From Adhaeribacter arboris (GTDB taxonomy: Bacteria; Bacteroidota; Bacteroidia; Cytophagales; Hymenobacteraceae), in assembly GCF_003023845.1 (NCBI RefSeq), contig NZ_PYFT01000001.1, positions 5,456,001 to 5,520,000 on the forward strand: a DNA stretch of 64,000 bases, written 5' to 3'. Each line of letters starts with the position of its first letter. Position 1 is the first letter of the stretch. Both the position numbers and the translations under genes were made by a program. This document shows positions 20,865 to 25,712 of the stretch, piece after piece. The notes below the pieces were generated by a model, which saw only the letters and a program-made list of their open reading frames with translations, made no database searches and was not told where the DNA came from.

Positions 20865-23267
20865 ATGAAAAGAATAATAAAAAAAGTTGCGGTTTTAGGT
20901 TCGGGCGTTATGGGTTCGCGCATTGCCTGCCATTTTGCCAATATTGGCGTGCCGGTACTGCTGCTTGATATGGCGCCTAAAGAACTGGCCCCGGAAGAAG
21001 CCCAACGTGGTTTAACCCTGGACCATCCCGCGGTAAAAAACCGGATTGTGAACAGCGCCTTACAAACGGCCATTGGCTCTAATCCGGCCCCGCTTTACCG
21101 TAAAACCGACGCGAAATATATTACTACGGGTAACTTCCAAGATAACCTAAAAGATATTGCTACCTGCGACTGGGTATTAGAAGTGGTGGTAGAAAATTTA
21201 AAAATTAAGCAACAACTTTTCGAGAAAGTAGAACAATTCCGTAAACCAGGTACCCTCATTACTTCTAACACATCGGGTATTCCCATTCACCTGATGGCAA
21301 CCGGCCGCTCCGATGATTTCCGGAAACACTTTTGTGGAACGCACTTTTTTAATCCGCCGCGGTATTTAAAACTGCTCGAAATCATTCCGAGCCCCGAAAC
21401 CGATAAAACGGTAGTAGATTTTTTGCTGCACTACGGCGATTTATACCTGGGCAAAACCACTGTGCTGGCGAAAGATACGCCGGCTTTTATTGCCAACCGC
21501 ATCGGTATTTTCGGGATAATGGATGCTTTTTACCAGATGCAAAAGCTGGGCTTAAACATCGACGAAGTGGACCGCATTACGGGCCCCGTAATTGGTCGCC
21601 CTAAATCGGCCACTTTCCGCACCCTGGATGTAGTAGGTTTAGATACATTAGCGAAAGTAGCCCAGGGCTTGTACCAAACCGGCGAGAAAGACGAGGCCCG
21701 CCACTTATTTCAATTACCCACTTACGTGCAGCAAATGCTGGAGCAAAACTGGCTGGGCGATAAATCGGGCCAAGGCTTTTACAAGAAAACTAAAAATGCG
21801 CAAGGTGAAACCGAAATCCTGACTTTAGATTTAAACTCGCTGGAGTACGCGCCCAAGCAAAAAGTAAAGTTTGCCAGTATGGAGTCGCTCAAAACCATGG
21901 ATAACCTGAAGCCGCGCTTAAAAGCTTTTTATACTGGTTCCGATAAAGCCTCCGAGTTTTTTAAAGCCACGGCGCACGGTTTGTTCCAATACATTTCTAA
22001 CCGCATTCCCGAAATATCCGACGAATTATACCGGATTGACGATGCTATGCAGGCTGGTTTTGGCTGGGAAATTGGGCCGTTTGAAATGTGGGATGCCCTG
22101 GGCATAGCCGAAACAATAAAAGTCATGGAAGCAGAAGAACGCAAACCAGCCGCTTGGGTGTACGATTTGCTGGCGGCCGGACATGCTTCGTTCTATAAAA
22201 CGGATCGGGGCACGCGCCTGTATTATGATATTCCAACCCAATCTTACCGAAATATACCAGGCACTGAAAGCTTTATTATTCTGGACAATTTCCGGGAAAG
22301 CAACGTCGTCTGGAAAAATAACGGGGCTACTTTGTTTGACATTGGCGATGGCATCCTGAATTTAGAATTCCAAACCAAAATGAATACTATCGGTTCCGAA
22401 ATTATTCAGGGGCTGAACAAAGCCATAGAAATCGGCGAGAAAAATTTCCGGGGATTAGTAGTCGGGAACGATGCGCCTAACTTCTCGGCGGGCGCTAATC
22501 TGGCCTTGGTTTACATGTACGCCCTTGACCAAGATTACGATGAAATGAACCTTATGATCCGGCAGTTCCAGAATACCATGATGCGCATGCGTTACAGCGC
22601 CATTCCGGTAGTAGCCGCGCCGCATGGTTTGGCATTGGGTGGCGGTTGCGAGTTAAGTCTGCACGCCGATAAAATTCAGGCCGCCGCCGAAACCTATATC
22701 GGGCTCGTGGAGTTTGGCGTGGGTTTAATTCCGGGGGGCGGTGGTACCAAAGAAATGACTTTACGCACCGCTGATTCTTTTGAAGAAGGCGACCCGGAGT
22801 TTAACAGCTTACGCAATACCTTCACCACCATCGCCATGGCGAAAGTATCTACTTCGGCGGAAGAAGCCTTTGATTTAGGATTTATGCGCCGCGGTGATGC
22901 CATTACCATTAACAATAACCGCTTACTCGCCGAAGCTAAGTTAGCCACAATAGAACTCGCCGAAGCCGGCTATACGCAACCCCTGCCGCGCAAAGACATT
23001 AAAGTACTGGGCCGCGGTGCCTTAGCCATGTTTATGGCCGGTGTTTACGCCATGTACGAAGGAAGCTACATCTCGGAGCACGATCAAAAAATTGCCCGCA
23101 AATTAGCTTACGTCATGTCGGGGGGTGATTTATCGGCTCCCACGTTGGTATCGGAGCAATACTTACTCGACCTGGAGCGCGAAGCATTTTTATCGCTCAC
23201 CGGCGAACGCAAAACCCTGGAACGCATCAAAAGCATATTAACCTCGGGTAAACCGTTAAGAAATTAG
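20865..23267 (+). CDS. 3-hydroxyacyl-CoA dehydrogenase / enoyl-CoA hydratase fusion (FadB/FadN type)
   Basis: This fusion catalyses hydration and NAD-dependent oxidation in beta-oxidation. The 800-residue protein has the dehydrogenase first: Rossmann motif VLGSGVMGSRIACHFAN at about 11-27, then HFFNPPRYLKLLEI and the C-terminal dehydrogenase domain, then an enoyl-CoA hydratase domain from about 495, with PHGLALGGGCELSLHAD and GLIPGGGGTKEM forming the oxyanion region. This domain order is that of FadN of Gram-positive bacteria rather than E. coli FadB. Thiolase and acyl-CoA dehydrogenase follow. Confidence 0.93.
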   Translation: MKRIIKKVAVLGSGVMGSRIACHFANIGVPVLLLDMAPKELAPEEAQRGLTLDHPAVKNRIVNSALQTAIGSNPAPLYRKTDAKYITTGNFQDNLKDIATCDWVLEVVVENLKIKQQLFEKVEQFRKPGTLITSNTSGIPIHLMATGRSDDFRKHFCGTHFFNPPRYLKLLEIIPSPETDKTVVDFLLHYGDLYLGKTTVLAKDTPAFIANRIGIFGIMDAFYQMQKLGLNIDEVDRITGPVIGRPKSATFRTLDVVGLDTLAKVAQGLYQTGEKDEARHLFQLPTYVQQMLEQNWLGDKSGQGFYKKTKNAQGETEILTLDLNSLEYAPKQKVKFASMESLKTMDNLKPRLKAFYTGSDKASEFFKATAHGLFQYISNRIPEISDELYRIDDAMQAGFGWEIGPFEMWDALGIAETIKVMEAEERKPAAWVYDLLAAGHASFYKTDRGTRLYYDIPTQSYRNIPGTESFIILDNFRESNVVWKNNGATLFDIGDGILNLEFQTKMNTIGSEIIQGLNKAIEIGEKNFRGLVVGNDAPNFSAGANLALVYMYALDQDYDEMNLMIRQFQNTMMRMRYSAIPVVAAPHGLALGGGCELSLHADKIQAAAETYIGLVEFGVGLIPGGGGTKEMTLRTADSFEEGDPEFNSLRNTFTTIAMAKVSTSAEEAFDLGFMRRGDAITINNNRLLAEAKLATIELAEAGYTQPLPRKDIKVLGRGALAMFMAGVYAMYEGSYISEHDQKIARKLAYVMSGGDLSAPTLVSEQYLLDLEREAFLSLTGERKTLERIKSILTSGKPLRN

Positions 23268-23329
23268 TGAAGAGTGAAGAGTTATAAGTTGAGAGTTATG
23301 AGTTTAAAGTTATATATGAAGAGTTAAGA
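23267..23329 (+). repeat. Heptamer array H (longest)
   Basis: Nine 7-mers follow in perfect register, beginning on the G of the fadN-type TAG stop codon. Examples are GTGAAGA (twice), GTTATAA, GTTGAGA, GTTATGA and GTTAAGA. Confidence 0.9.
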
Positions 23330-23590: not shown

Positions 23591-24031
23591 GTCATCCTGA
23601 AAGGAACTAGCCGGGATTGGTAATAAACCTTTACTTACTAAAGAGCAAACTGCTTTTTACAGAAATGTGGAACCAGAACTATTTCACTTACATCGCTACT
23701 AACCCGCGCAAAACGGTTCTTTACGTGGGAGTTACTAACGACTTAGAAAGACGATTAAACGAGCGTTTTGAGAATAGAGGAAAACCAGAAACTTTTGCTG
23801 GCAAATATTACTGTTATAACCTTCTTTATTATGAGCGGCATTTAAAGATGATTCATGCCATTGAACGGGAAAAGGAAATAAAGTTAATGAGCCGGGAAGA
23901 TAAAGAGAAGCTGATTAAATCGGAGAATCCACATTTATTATTTTTAAAAATCAGAGATTAAGAGAGCAGTTAAACATACCTGTTTCATTGTTAGCTCTTT
24001 TGGTTGGCCGGTTAGATCCTTTCAGGATGAC
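23591..24031 (+). mobile_element. 441-bp inverted-repeat unit carrying a GIY-YIG nuclease gene
   Basis: Ends 23591-23614 and 24008-24031 are inverted repeats matching at 22 of 24 positions, each starting GTCATCCTGAAAGGA. Between them is only the GIY-YIG gene. The unit lies between the fadN-type gene and thiolase, where an uninterrupted operon would be expected. No transposase or integrase is present. It looks like a small mobile or REP-like cassette; mobility is inference. Confidence 0.65.
23665..23961 (+). CDS. GIY-YIG single-domain endonuclease
   Basis: This is a 98-residue stand-alone GIY-YIG domain. Residues of the name motif appear as YFTYIATN and LYVGVTNDLERRL at the N-terminus, followed by the helix with YYERH and the C-terminal AIEREKEIKLMSREDK that contains the metal-binding Glu position. 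The ATG beginning MWNQNYF was chosen; the longer frame starts with TTG at 23617, next to the inverted repeat. Proteins of this kind are scattered in Bacteroidota genomes and their role is not known. The 24-bp inverted repeats on both sides suggest they belong together. Confidence 0.85.
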   Translation: MWNQNYFTYIATNPRKTVLYVGVTNDLERRLNERFENRGKPETFAGKYYCYNLLYYERHLKMIHAIEREKEIKLMSREDKEKLIKSENPHLLFLKIRD

Positions 24032-24145: not shown

Positions 24146-25324
24146 ATGCAAAATGCCTATATCGTAGCCGGTTACCGTTCGGCTATTACCAAAGCAAACC
24201 GGGGCGGTTTTCGGTTTACCCGCCCCGACGACCTGGCTGCCGATGTTATTAAATATTTGCTGGCTTCGGTTCCCCAACTAGACCCCGAGCGGGTGGATGA
24301 CTTGATTGTGGGCAATGCGGTGCCCGAAGCAGAACAAGGCTTACAAATGGGCCGGATGATTGCCTTACTCGCTTTACCCACCAGTGTATCCGGGATGACG
24401 GTAAACCGTTATTGTGGCTCCGGGATTGAAACCATTGCCATTGCCTGTAGTAAAATTGCCGCTGGTATTTCCGATTGTATTATTGCCGGTGGTACCGAAT
24501 CCATGTCACTGGTGCCCACGGTAGGTTTTAAAACAGCGCCTAATTATAATTTGGCGGTAAAGCACCCGGAATATTTTTTAAGCATGGGCTTAACCGCCGA
24601 AGCAGTCGCGAAAGATTATAACATCACCCGCGAAGACCAGGACGAATTCTCTTATAATTCGCATCAGAAGGCCATTAAAGCCATTGAAGCCGGTTTGTTG
24701 CAGGAGCAGATTGTGCCCATTACCATTGAAGAAACCTACGTAGACGATAATGGCAAAAAGAAAACCCGTTCCTACGTGGTAGATGCCGACGAAGGTCCGC
24801 GGGCCGATACTTCCCTGGATAAGTTAGCTAAGCTGAAGCCCGTATTCGCCCAAAACGGAACGGTAACCGCCGGCAACGCTTCGCAAACGTCGGATGGAGC
24901 TGCCTTTGTCATTGTCATGAGCGAGCGAATGGTAAAAGAACTCAATCTCGAACCAATTGCCCGCATGGTGACGTACGCTACCGGCGGTGTAGATCCGCGC
25001 ATTATGGGCATGGGGCCTATCGCGGCCGTGCCGAAAGCCATCAAGCAAGCTGGCCTGCACCTGAATGATATCGACCTTTTTGAAATAAACGAAGCTTTCG
25101 CGGCGCAAACCTTAGCGGTAATTCGCCATTTAGATATTCCGGAGGAAAAATTAAACGTGAGTGGCGGCGCTATTGCTACTGGTCACCCTTTAGGTTGTTC
25201 CGGTGCCAAACTCAGCATCCAGCAATGGCACGAACTCCGTCGCCGAAAGCAGAAATACGGTTTAGTAACCGCTTGTGTAGGTGGCGGCCAAGGCGTAGCA
25301 GGAATTTATGAATTACTTAGTTAG
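24146..25324 (+). CDS. Acetyl-CoA acyltransferase (thiolase)
   Basis: This thiolase releases acetyl-CoA in the last step of beta-oxidation. The 392-residue protein has the nucleophilic Cys90 in VNRYCGSG, the NEAFAAQ segment near 319-325, His347 in GHPLGCSG and the acid/base Cys377 in ACVGGGQG. With the fadN-type fusion and the acyl-CoA dehydrogenase it completes the pathway, in the same order as fadN-fadA-fadE. Its 5' side is separated from fadN by the GIY-YIG unit and its 3' side from the dehydrogenase by the S23-type gene, both with repeat arrays. Confidence 0.94.
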   Translation: MQNAYIVAGYRSAITKANRGGFRFTRPDDLAADVIKYLLASVPQLDPERVDDLIVGNAVPEAEQGLQMGRMIALLALPTSVSGMTVNRYCGSGIETIAIACSKIAAGISDCIIAGGTESMSLVPTVGFKTAPNYNLAVKHPEYFLSMGLTAEAVAKDYNITREDQDEFSYNSHQKAIKAIEAGLLQEQIVPITIEETYVDDNGKKKTRSYVVDADEGPRADTSLDKLAKLKPVFAQNGTVTAGNASQTSDGAAFVIVMSERMVKELNLEPIARMVTYATGGVDPRIMGMGPIAAVPKAIKQAGLHLNDIDLFEINEAFAAQTLAVIRHLDIPEEKLNVSGGAIATGHPLGCSGAKLSIQQWHELRRRKQKYGLVTACVGGGQGVAGIYELLS

Positions 25325-25356: not shown

Positions 25357-25656
25357 ATGCATAATGATAAGGAGTTAAAGATCTGGCAAGAAGGAATTAT
25401 TTTAGCAAAGCTAATTTATCAGGCTACGGCTAATTTTCCTTCTAATGAAAAATATGGACTTACATCACAAATAAACAGATCAGCAGTTTCTATTCCGTCT
25501 AACATAGCTGAAGGGGCTGGTAGAAGTTATGATAAGGAGTTTATTCAGTTTTTAGGCATTGCACTTGATTCAGCCTTTGAGCTTGAAACACAAATTATCC
25601 TCGCTAATTCTTTTGGTTTTATAAAAGAAGAAAATTTTTCAGAATTGTCTGAATAA
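25357..25656 (+). CDS. Four-helix-bundle protein (S23/TIGR02436 type), truncated by an in-frame stop
   Basis: The 99 residues match the four-helix-bundle family first found in intervening sequences of 23S rRNA genes: LKIWQEGIILAKLIYQ, FPSNEKYGLTSQINRSAVSIPSNIAEG, and FIQFLGIALDSAFELETQI. The frame stops at TAA 25654-25656, but the same frame continues with LVKVQKMINGFRLSI, the expected last helix, and ends at 25723-25725. A single TAA codon therefore removes the last helix; full length would be about 121 residues, normal for the family. The gene is bounded by inverted heptamer arrays. The family's role is unknown; it resembles Avd proteins of diversity-generating retroelements. Confidence 0.85.
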   Translation: MHNDKELKIWQEGIILAKLIYQATANFPSNEKYGLTSQINRSAVSIPSNIAEGAGRSYDKEFIQFLGIALDSAFELETQIILANSFGFIKEENFSELSE

Positions 25657-25712
25657 TTAGTAAAAGTACAGAAGATGATTAATGGTTTTCGATTATCAAT
25701 TATAAATAAAAA

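Follow-up and report, generated by a model that had tools for sequence, protein, structure and literature searches.

A gene for a small GIY-YIG nuclease, flanked by two inverted hairpin repeats, was found in an Adhaeribacter genome. We consider it likely, at roughly two chances in three, that in this unit we see a REP system in its gene-bearing ('autonomous') form, with the nuclease as its enzyme; under our best reading the REPs are cut and moved by that nuclease. Bacterial genomes commonly contain such repeats, and those of the GTAG kind have a partner enzyme, RAYT. The first-pass annotation had suggested a REP-like system with a GIY-YIG protein in the place of RAYT, and the comparative evidence points the same way; what it supports is the pairing of gene and repeat, the ends of the units and their past movement. 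The GIY-YIG nuclease gene is indeed paired with REPs of the CGTC type, and widely so.

The unit in the window

The unit lies in the window, by which we mean the whole 64-kb stretch of DNA that was analysed. The features are as follows, with positions in the window.

20865 to 23267, + strand: left neighbour, a 3-hydroxyacyl-CoA dehydrogenase-like ORF outside the unit, read from the ORF translation
23591 to 24031, no strand assigned: the whole REP-GIY-REP unit, 441 bp
23591 to 23614, + strand: left arm, a C-REP-like hairpin repeat with outward GTC tag, imperfect stem ATCCT-gaa-AGGAA and tail CTAGCCGG
23619 to 23629, + strand: internal motif GGTAATAAACC, with no second copy in the window
23665 to 23961, + strand: single-domain GIY-YIG nuclease gene, 98 aa, Pfam PF01541
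24008 to 24031, - strand: right arm, the left-arm repeat inverted (head-to-head), with perfect stem ATCCT-gaa-AGGAT and tail CTAACCGG
24146 to 25324, + strand: right neighbour, a thiolase-like ORF outside the unit, read from the ORF translation

The arms are 24 nt each, complementary at 22 of the 24 positions and separated by 393 bp. They are the sole inverted pair of at least 22/24 within 500 bp in the 64-kb window, and three mononucleotide shuffles of the window gave no inverted pair of that quality. Each arm is a small hairpin (GTC-ATCCT-gaa-AGGA) with the unpaired GTC facing outward, the tag letters being aGTC and tGTC. The right-arm hairpin proper occupies 24016-24031; the left arm ends in AGGAA, having lost one stem pair, and fails a detector for 5-bp stems. 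A GIY-YIG gene between near-perfect 24-nt inverted arms, in a beta-oxidation setting, had been noted in the first reading of this DNA. The arm match (22/24) and the Pfam match (PF01541, E 9.4e-12) agree with this, as do the neighbours, which from their ORF translations only look like a 3-hydroxyacyl-CoA dehydrogenase and a thiolase.

The internal motif GGTAATAAACC is present in 8 of the 12 gene-free REP dimers of genomes G000 and G001 and in 3 of the 5 units at the same (fad) locus, the window unit counted. The motif GGTAAT-ACC is common to dimer spacers and gene-bearing units.

At 25369-25686, 1.3 kb downstream of the unit, is a gene of the S23 family (23S_rRNA_IVP, four-helix bundle) that contains an in-frame TAA. 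The window's genome has a second GIY-YIG unit (C1:6740143), and there too an S23 gene is found no more than about 6 kb away. Positions 23265-23325 hold a gtgaagagttataagttgagagttatgag-type stretch that matches many places across the genus.

The arms as REPs

CGTC REPs (also TGTC) have stems that begin with AT and occur mainly as head-to-head dimers; the tag is unpaired and often reads TGTC or CCTC instead, and the definition in the available part of the source is a stem of 8-9 bp, a loop of 4-5 and a tail CCA (Di Nocera 2013, PMC3733652). According to the same part of the text, they occur in five phyla (Proteobacteria, Chlorobi, Bacteroidetes, Spirochaetes and Thermotogae), no tyrosine transposase gene is flanked by them, and they 'apparently lack a dedicated transposase', a question left open in 2013 (PMC3733652). 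The term GIY-YIG is absent from the available text of that paper.

The repeats of the window appear to belong to, or closely resemble, this CGTC/TGTC super-family. A cGTC or tGTC tag is carried by the rhizobial and Aeromonas arms and by many Bacteroidota arms; the stem starts with AT in the right arm of the window and in all arms found by the detector, which itself demands AT; and head-to-head dimers occur in G000, G001, G002, G003, G005 and G006. Tail-to-tail neighbours are seen as well. At seven Rhizobiaceae and Aeromonas loci the likeness extends to a stem of 8-9, a short loop of 4-5 and a tail that is mostly CCA, the deviations being one tail CTG and one loop of 3. The Adhaeribacter repeats differ: their perfect stems are shorter (5 bp), their loops are of 3 and their tails are CTA or CTT, off the definition in all three. 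A further difference is that no transposase gene is reported in the available text of PMC3733652, whereas here a GIY-YIG gene is associated with the repeats.

The first-pass annotation had made recurrence of the 24-bp motif a test of its idea, and the motif does recur. The 15-nt motif of the arms, at no more than one mismatch, has 16 sites in the 7.25-Mb genome against 0 for the reversed control, and the hairpin pattern is found throughout eight Adhaeribacter genomes, with 8 to 172 matches each against 0 or 1 in the reversed control. The two free stem pairs are concordant in 119/125 and 122/125 matches from five genomes, and the stem covariation among 49 distinct sequences is significant (p 7e-8 and 8e-11); the folded strand therefore seems to be what is kept. 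A detector with stems of at least 6 missed the Bacteroidota arms, and later counts use its replacement. Since loops longer than 20 are missed (for example at locus L414), the numbers of REPs given here are minimum values.

A second GIY-YIG lineage in Adhaeribacter (L041, L040, L042) has arms of the type GTCATTCAGGAGGAA.., with no perfect AT-stem hairpin.

Association of the gene with C-REPs

We measured the inverted flanks of related genes with an arm score. At 28 of 30 relatives' loci the arms exceed the maximum of 20 shuffles, although some of these arms are not of the GTCAT type. A score of at least 14 was reached at 47 of 76 named loci (79 minus three with short flanks) versus 0/76 in the shuffled control, arms of that score being missing at the other 29, and at 17 of 29 loci of a further set, one of whose 30 loci was dropped. 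These sets overlap. The same score was also reached at 5 of 6 loci of S23 genes and 7 of 30 loci of Y1 transposases. Because the arm score alone is unspecific, a test for C-REPs was added.

C-REPs are concentrated around the gene. Up to 300 bp from the gene versus beyond, their density per kb is 2.06 versus 0.085, 3.23 versus 0.276 and 4.34 versus 0.438 in three sets of loci and 3.64 versus 0.294 on plasmids, that is, 10-24 times higher near the gene in four overlapping sets. The corresponding values are 0.06 versus 0.086 for the 30 Y1 loci and 0 versus 0.069 for the 6 S23 loci. A strict head-to-head REP pair encloses the gene at 9/30, 24/76, 11/29 and 6/11 loci, and tail-to-tail pairs surround it at 3, 13, 6 and 1 loci in the same sets (30, 76, 29 and 11); the strict head-to-head test found 0/30 at Y1 loci and 0/6 at S23 loci. 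Gene relatives with such flanking repeats come from Bacteroidota, Balneolota, KSB1, Rhizobiaceae and Aeromonas.

Two other gene families were considered as partners and rejected. S23 genes do not share the ends of the unit: the six loci in the window's own genome are without a C-REP pair, and their inverted flanks resemble low-complexity repeats. Y1 transposases are not the owners of C-REPs either, since none of the 30 loci has a pair and the hairpins, where loci have them, are of other types; a GTCAT hairpin of any sort lies within 300 bp at one of the 30. The Y1 genes L242 and L244 (Cytophagales) have flanking hairpins of their own, of the type GTCCCAGCGGGAC, unlike C-REPs.

A survey of 1.58 Mb from four genomes (G090, G002, G171 and G016; 112 REP calls) yielded four head-to-head pairs 251-2500 bp apart. 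Three of these enclose a GIY-YIG gene and nothing else, all three in G171; the fourth spans about 2 kb with large ORFs, and its two hairpins are unlike each other. Two GIY-YIG genes, in the surveyed stretches of G090 and G016, have no strict pair around them. The G171 stretch was chosen for having such genes, and the survey therefore tests which gene is enclosed, not how often.

A plasmid collection gave 15 gene matches, of which 11 loci were examined; the phage records searched for the gene gave no match. Seven of the 11 loci (six Rhizobiaceae, one Aeromonas) have canonical CGTC REPs at most 100 bp upstream of the gene, with stems of 8-10, loops of 3-5 and mostly CCA tails, and in five of the seven the REPs flank the gene on both sides. 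The right-hand REP of L184 and L181 has one faulty base; at L181 the three REPs found by pattern are all upstream, and the fault is a base inserted in the tag. No C-REPs were seen near the gene at one Planktothrix and two Sphingobium loci. At a Spirosoma locus the strict detector finds one REP, downstream of the gene, and the relaxed detector finds a pair. Whole-record REP searches covered five of the seven REP-bearing loci. In NZ_CP147998 (1.76 Mb) there are 2 pattern REPs in the entire replicon, both flanking the gene, so that in this one replicon the REPs seem to have come with the gene. CP090106 (3.72 Mb) has 4 pattern REPs, 3 of them within about 330 bp upstream of the gene; two Shinella plasmids have 10 and 8, of which 3 and 2 are beside the gene; and a Rhizobium record has a different REP type at the gene, missed by the whole-record pattern. 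At L180, on the Planktothrix plasmid, the GIY-YIG relative lies, without C-REPs, between an MmeI-type restriction enzyme gene and DISARM drmA.

Ends of the units and insertion sites

Genome comparison establishes the association of gene and repeats, the ends of the units and the past mobility of units. In G171 the similarity of two units begins 53 bp before the gene and ends 43 bp after it, and their REPs end at 53 and 42. Two units of G128 are similar from 84-85 bp before to 71-76 bp after the gene, with REPs ending at 76-77 and 72, and similarity thus stops within about 8 bp of the outer ends of the REPs. Of ten same-genome pairs, only these two end at REPs on both sides. In a G149 pair the right end falls 2 bp past a long-loop REP (142 versus 140) and the left runs to the contig end; in three further G128 pairs the likeness is confined to the gene or just beyond; and in three G115 pairs and one G138 pair it runs past the REPs or stops elsewhere. 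Gene-free dimers, 10 of G005 and 5 of G002 judged by eye, start at GTCAT and stop at ATGAC; in G090 the repeat extends a few bases beyond.

Target duplications and empty sites had been proposed as signs of insertion. Flanking direct repeats of at least 4 bp are rare, at 1 of 138 pairs of up to 250 bp and at 0 of 35 pairs of 300-900 bp, the latter not individually checked for the GIY-YIG gene. A search of the fad locus, Shinella and S. medicae gave no clean empty site. Four Shinella loci (L190, L191, L196 and L197) have no GIY-like frame and no C-REP in the intergenic stretch; the Shinella loci are just 84-85% alike, so no junction could be read. At L192, L193 and L195 the intergenic stretch is nearly absent, and L194 has another gene there. 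The S. medicae megaplasmids (4 full-length records and 8 short ones, of which two of each kind were examined) differ by 162 bp between C-REPs (L388/L389 versus L391/L392), with AGCC at both ends; this difference looks like a deletion at the shared AGCC and was rejected as an empty site.

Insertion at the centres of palindromes was also rejected: it was seen in 3 of 5 G002 dimers, but in 9 of 138 distinct dimers (1% in a mis-paired control), and the threshold was reached by 2 of 35 longer pairs (control 2.5%), a hint at most. Copies at the centre of a flanking palindrome include L340, L339 and L342 in G002 and L411 in G171; the palindrome at L340 is 18 bp long with one mismatch.

Of 20 gene-free dimers in G000, G003 and G006, 13 lie within larger inverted-repeat elements (outer repeat score of at least 14) and may spread with those elements. 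A C-REP dimer is often found inside members of two larger MITE-like families, whose outer ends are ..AAACAGGATTGTCCGAAACC.. and TTAACGTGAGTTCGAGATAAG.. (L258-L277 and L308-L327; G000, G003, G004 and G006), and a loose pattern finds a REP in 15 of 20 further copies of the larger MITE-like repeats. At L403 (G128:C216) a tail-to-tail REP pair of about 90 bp is present in two direct copies with a GIY-YIG gene between them, as if a repeat array had taken the gene in.

The fad locus was found in 7 of the 8 Adhaeribacter genomes searched. Five of the seven carry the unit (G001, G002, G006 and G007 besides the window's genome), G003 is without it, and G004 has a lone REP like the right arm; orthologous fad clusters therefore do not all hold the gene, an outcome in keeping with the insertion that had been suspected. 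The five units have arms that differ from genome to genome, but within any one unit the left arm largely matches the right, so that both ends appear to change in concert. The window copy looks like an old insertion inherited at this locus.

The nuclease

The ORF of the window is a single GIY-YIG domain that passes the Pfam cut-off, and a search of NCBIfam at E 0.001 gave no match. The alignment with relatives starts at the ATG at 23665 (98 aa), and for this reason the listed TTG start at 23617 is probably too far upstream and the ATG is preferred. Among 44 aligned sequences Y20, G22, R30, E69, K73 and N88 are among the invariant residues. The window copy keeps Y20, G22, R30, E69 and N88, which we take to be the catalytic positions of GIY-YIG nucleases. 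Residue 34 is H in 43 of the 44 and R in the window copy, so that this copy may be damaged or impaired and perhaps inactive now.

All 44 aligned proteins match GIY-YIG in Pfam, Y1_Tnp is absent from the five Pfam families matched among them, and Pfam finds no separate DNA-binding domain besides the catalytic one. A homologue was found in 25 of 39 relatives, several of which have more than one copy and some copies with stops. In Rhizobiaceae, dN/dS ratios of 0.07-0.15 (six pairs of four genes) indicate purifying selection on the gene; dN spans 0.17-0.25 among four Adhaeribacter genes, whose dS was not computable. The AlphaFold model of the paralog in the window's genome has a pLDDT of 94.8, and its nearest folds, with weak E-values, are UPF0213 (E 1.1e-3) and, next, Slx1 (E from 0.03 upwards, probability 0.9-1). 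Slx1 is a nuclease of branched DNA that acts in eukaryotic repair with its partner Slx4.

Gene and repeat numbers across genomes

Among 156 Cytophagales genomes, at least 10 pattern REPs are present in 29 of the 49 with a close homologue of the gene versus 8 of the 107 without (p 1e-11, uncorrected for kinship). Sorted by the presence of a Y1 transposase, the corresponding numbers are 34 of 121 with and 3 of 35 without. Outside the family of the window's genome, at least 5 REPs are found in 19 of 36 genomes with a homologue and in 9 of 105 without. The pattern is narrow; in 19 of the 49 gene-bearing genomes it has fewer than 5 matches. Eight genomes are REP-rich without a close homologue: G145 (128 REPs), G065 (51), G052 (41), G014 (34), G113 (33), G020 (32), G088 (15) and G153 (12). 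Four of them have a weaker homologue, and they mostly have Y1 genes, G020 being the exception. G003 and G004 are likewise rich in REPs and have no close homologue.

In some genomes the arms match the resident repeats. We compared the arm cores of six genomes with gene-free REPs and counted identities among the REPs of the same genome versus those of the other genomes compared: 4/9 versus 0/114 in G000, 5/19 versus 0/104 in G171, 4/21 versus 0/102 in G128 (one of several arm types there) and 3/27 versus 0/96 in G005 (taking the nearest outward-facing pair, with another REP in between). In G001 and G006 the arms match resident REPs no better than those of other genomes.

A model and its alternatives

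Under the reading that we favour, two CGTC/TGTC-type REPs with their GTC tags outward would form the ends of the unit, and the gene-free REP dimers elsewhere in the genome would be its non-autonomous form. The REP hairpin would extrude in single-stranded or supercoiled DNA; the Slx1-like nuclease would recognise tag and stem and nick at or beside the tag at both ends; and the segment between the tags would be excised or copied, then inserted at a new place without target duplication. The cutting, the choice of strand and the step that moves the DNA are the parts of this model that we infer.

Alternatively, the protein could be a homing endonuclease that targets the C-REP dimer, the REPs being target and homology and made by something else. 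GIY-YIG domains are common in homing endonucleases. A gene-free dimer that was cut and repaired from a gene-bearing copy would receive the gene between its REPs, where gene-free dimers have a mere spacer, and the GGTAAT-ACC motif shared by spacers and units fits this, as does a weak match of one rhizobial copy to the PADLOC 'homing endonuclease' model (E 4.6e-4). Against it, the two REPs that flank the gene in NZ_CP147998 are the sole pattern REPs of that 1.76-Mb replicon, the G171 units end at REPs, and Pfam finds no separate DNA-binding domain, unlike I-TevI, which has one. We regard homing as unlikely.

The gene could instead be a neutral or selfish rider between REPs that are moved in trans by a Y1 (RAYT-like) or a DDE transposase. 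The Y1 genes of most REP-rich genomes without a close homologue (G020 excepted) would suit such an arrangement, as would the three Adhaeribacter genomes in which most examined dimers lie inside MITE-like elements. Y1 loci, however, are without C-REP pairs and have hairpins that differ, with a GTCAT hairpin of any sort at 1 of 30; the presence of Y1 predicts REP number less well than does the GIY-YIG gene; the rhizobial gene is under purifying selection; and no other gene lies inside matched pairs in 1.58 Mb. A passenger gene is quite improbable.

About as improbable is a role for the host, in which the nuclease resolves or trims REP cruciforms in genome maintenance or mRNA processing and spread occurs by ordinary recombination; the further notion that the flanking REPs regulate the nuclease's own gene is just as doubtful. 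A Slx1-like fold suits branched DNA, and the fad-locus unit is kept in 5 of 7 genomes, with arms that vary between genomes and agree from left to right within them. Yet a mobile element accounts better than a housekeeping gene for the patchy distribution, for the disrupted copies and for units that end sharply at unrelated sites. Finally, a chance inverted repeat around a nuclease gene, conceivable in that short inverted repeats are common and 5/6 S23 and 7/30 Y1 loci reach an arm score of 14, is already refuted by the identity of the arms as C-REPs, the density contrast, the Rhizobiaceae records and the 1.58-Mb survey.

Relation to known systems

The system proposed here, a REP system with a GIY-YIG enzyme, is most easily compared with the REPtron (RAYT or TnpA-REP, and REPINs). 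In both, the repeats are small hairpins that bear an unpaired tag and form head-to-head dimers, and a gene-bearing copy is flanked by the same repeats, with arms that here match the resident REPs in some genomes, not in every one. They differ in that RAYT is a HUH Y1 transposase and its tag is GTAG, whereas here there is a GIY-YIG nuclease and the tag is CGTC/TGTC; the 30 Y1 loci examined, from the same bacterial order, carry no C-REP pair. With the GIY-YIG homing endonucleases I-TevI and SegE the gene shares the catalytic domain and a patchy, selfish-looking distribution, but it lacks a separate DNA-binding domain by Pfam, and the hairpin ends are part of the unit itself. UPF0213 (BH0048) and Slx1 are the closest solved folds, Slx1 differing as a eukaryotic repair nuclease with a partner, and our literature search found no link of either to REPs. 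MITEs and insertion sequences likewise have inverted ends around one gene and short gene-free relatives; here, by contrast, the ends are self-complementary hairpins, and direct repeats are rare (1/138, 0/35).

No paper linking a GIY-YIG gene to REPs was found in the literature searched, which comprised few subscription papers and no preprints; three large lists of matches were covered to the best 40 of 281, 15 of 165 and 25 of 29. 'GIY' was not found in the available parts of PMC12306157, PMC6006769, PMC5082802 and PMC8266576, and the single match that joined GIY-YIG with REP, PMC9465073, is unrelated as far as its available text goes.

Because the pairing of GIY-YIG gene and C-REPs recurs in several phyla, the nuclease may be the missing partner of the CGTC REPs. 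Evidence from Bacteroidota, Balneolota, KSB1 and Pseudomonadota leaves evenly poised the wider reading that the whole super-family is mobilised by single-domain GIY-YIG nucleases, a second and unrelated kind of REPtron. The same even balance holds for what that reading would entail, a transposition-like system built on a hairpin-cutting GIY-YIG enzyme and not on a HUH, DDE, tyrosine or serine recombinase. If the gene is the partner of the CGTC REPs, one small protein and one 26-bp hairpin would be enough to test how these repeats spread, there would be a role for many small GIY-YIG proteins that are now unexplained, and GIY-YIG would join the chemistries that move bacterial DNA.
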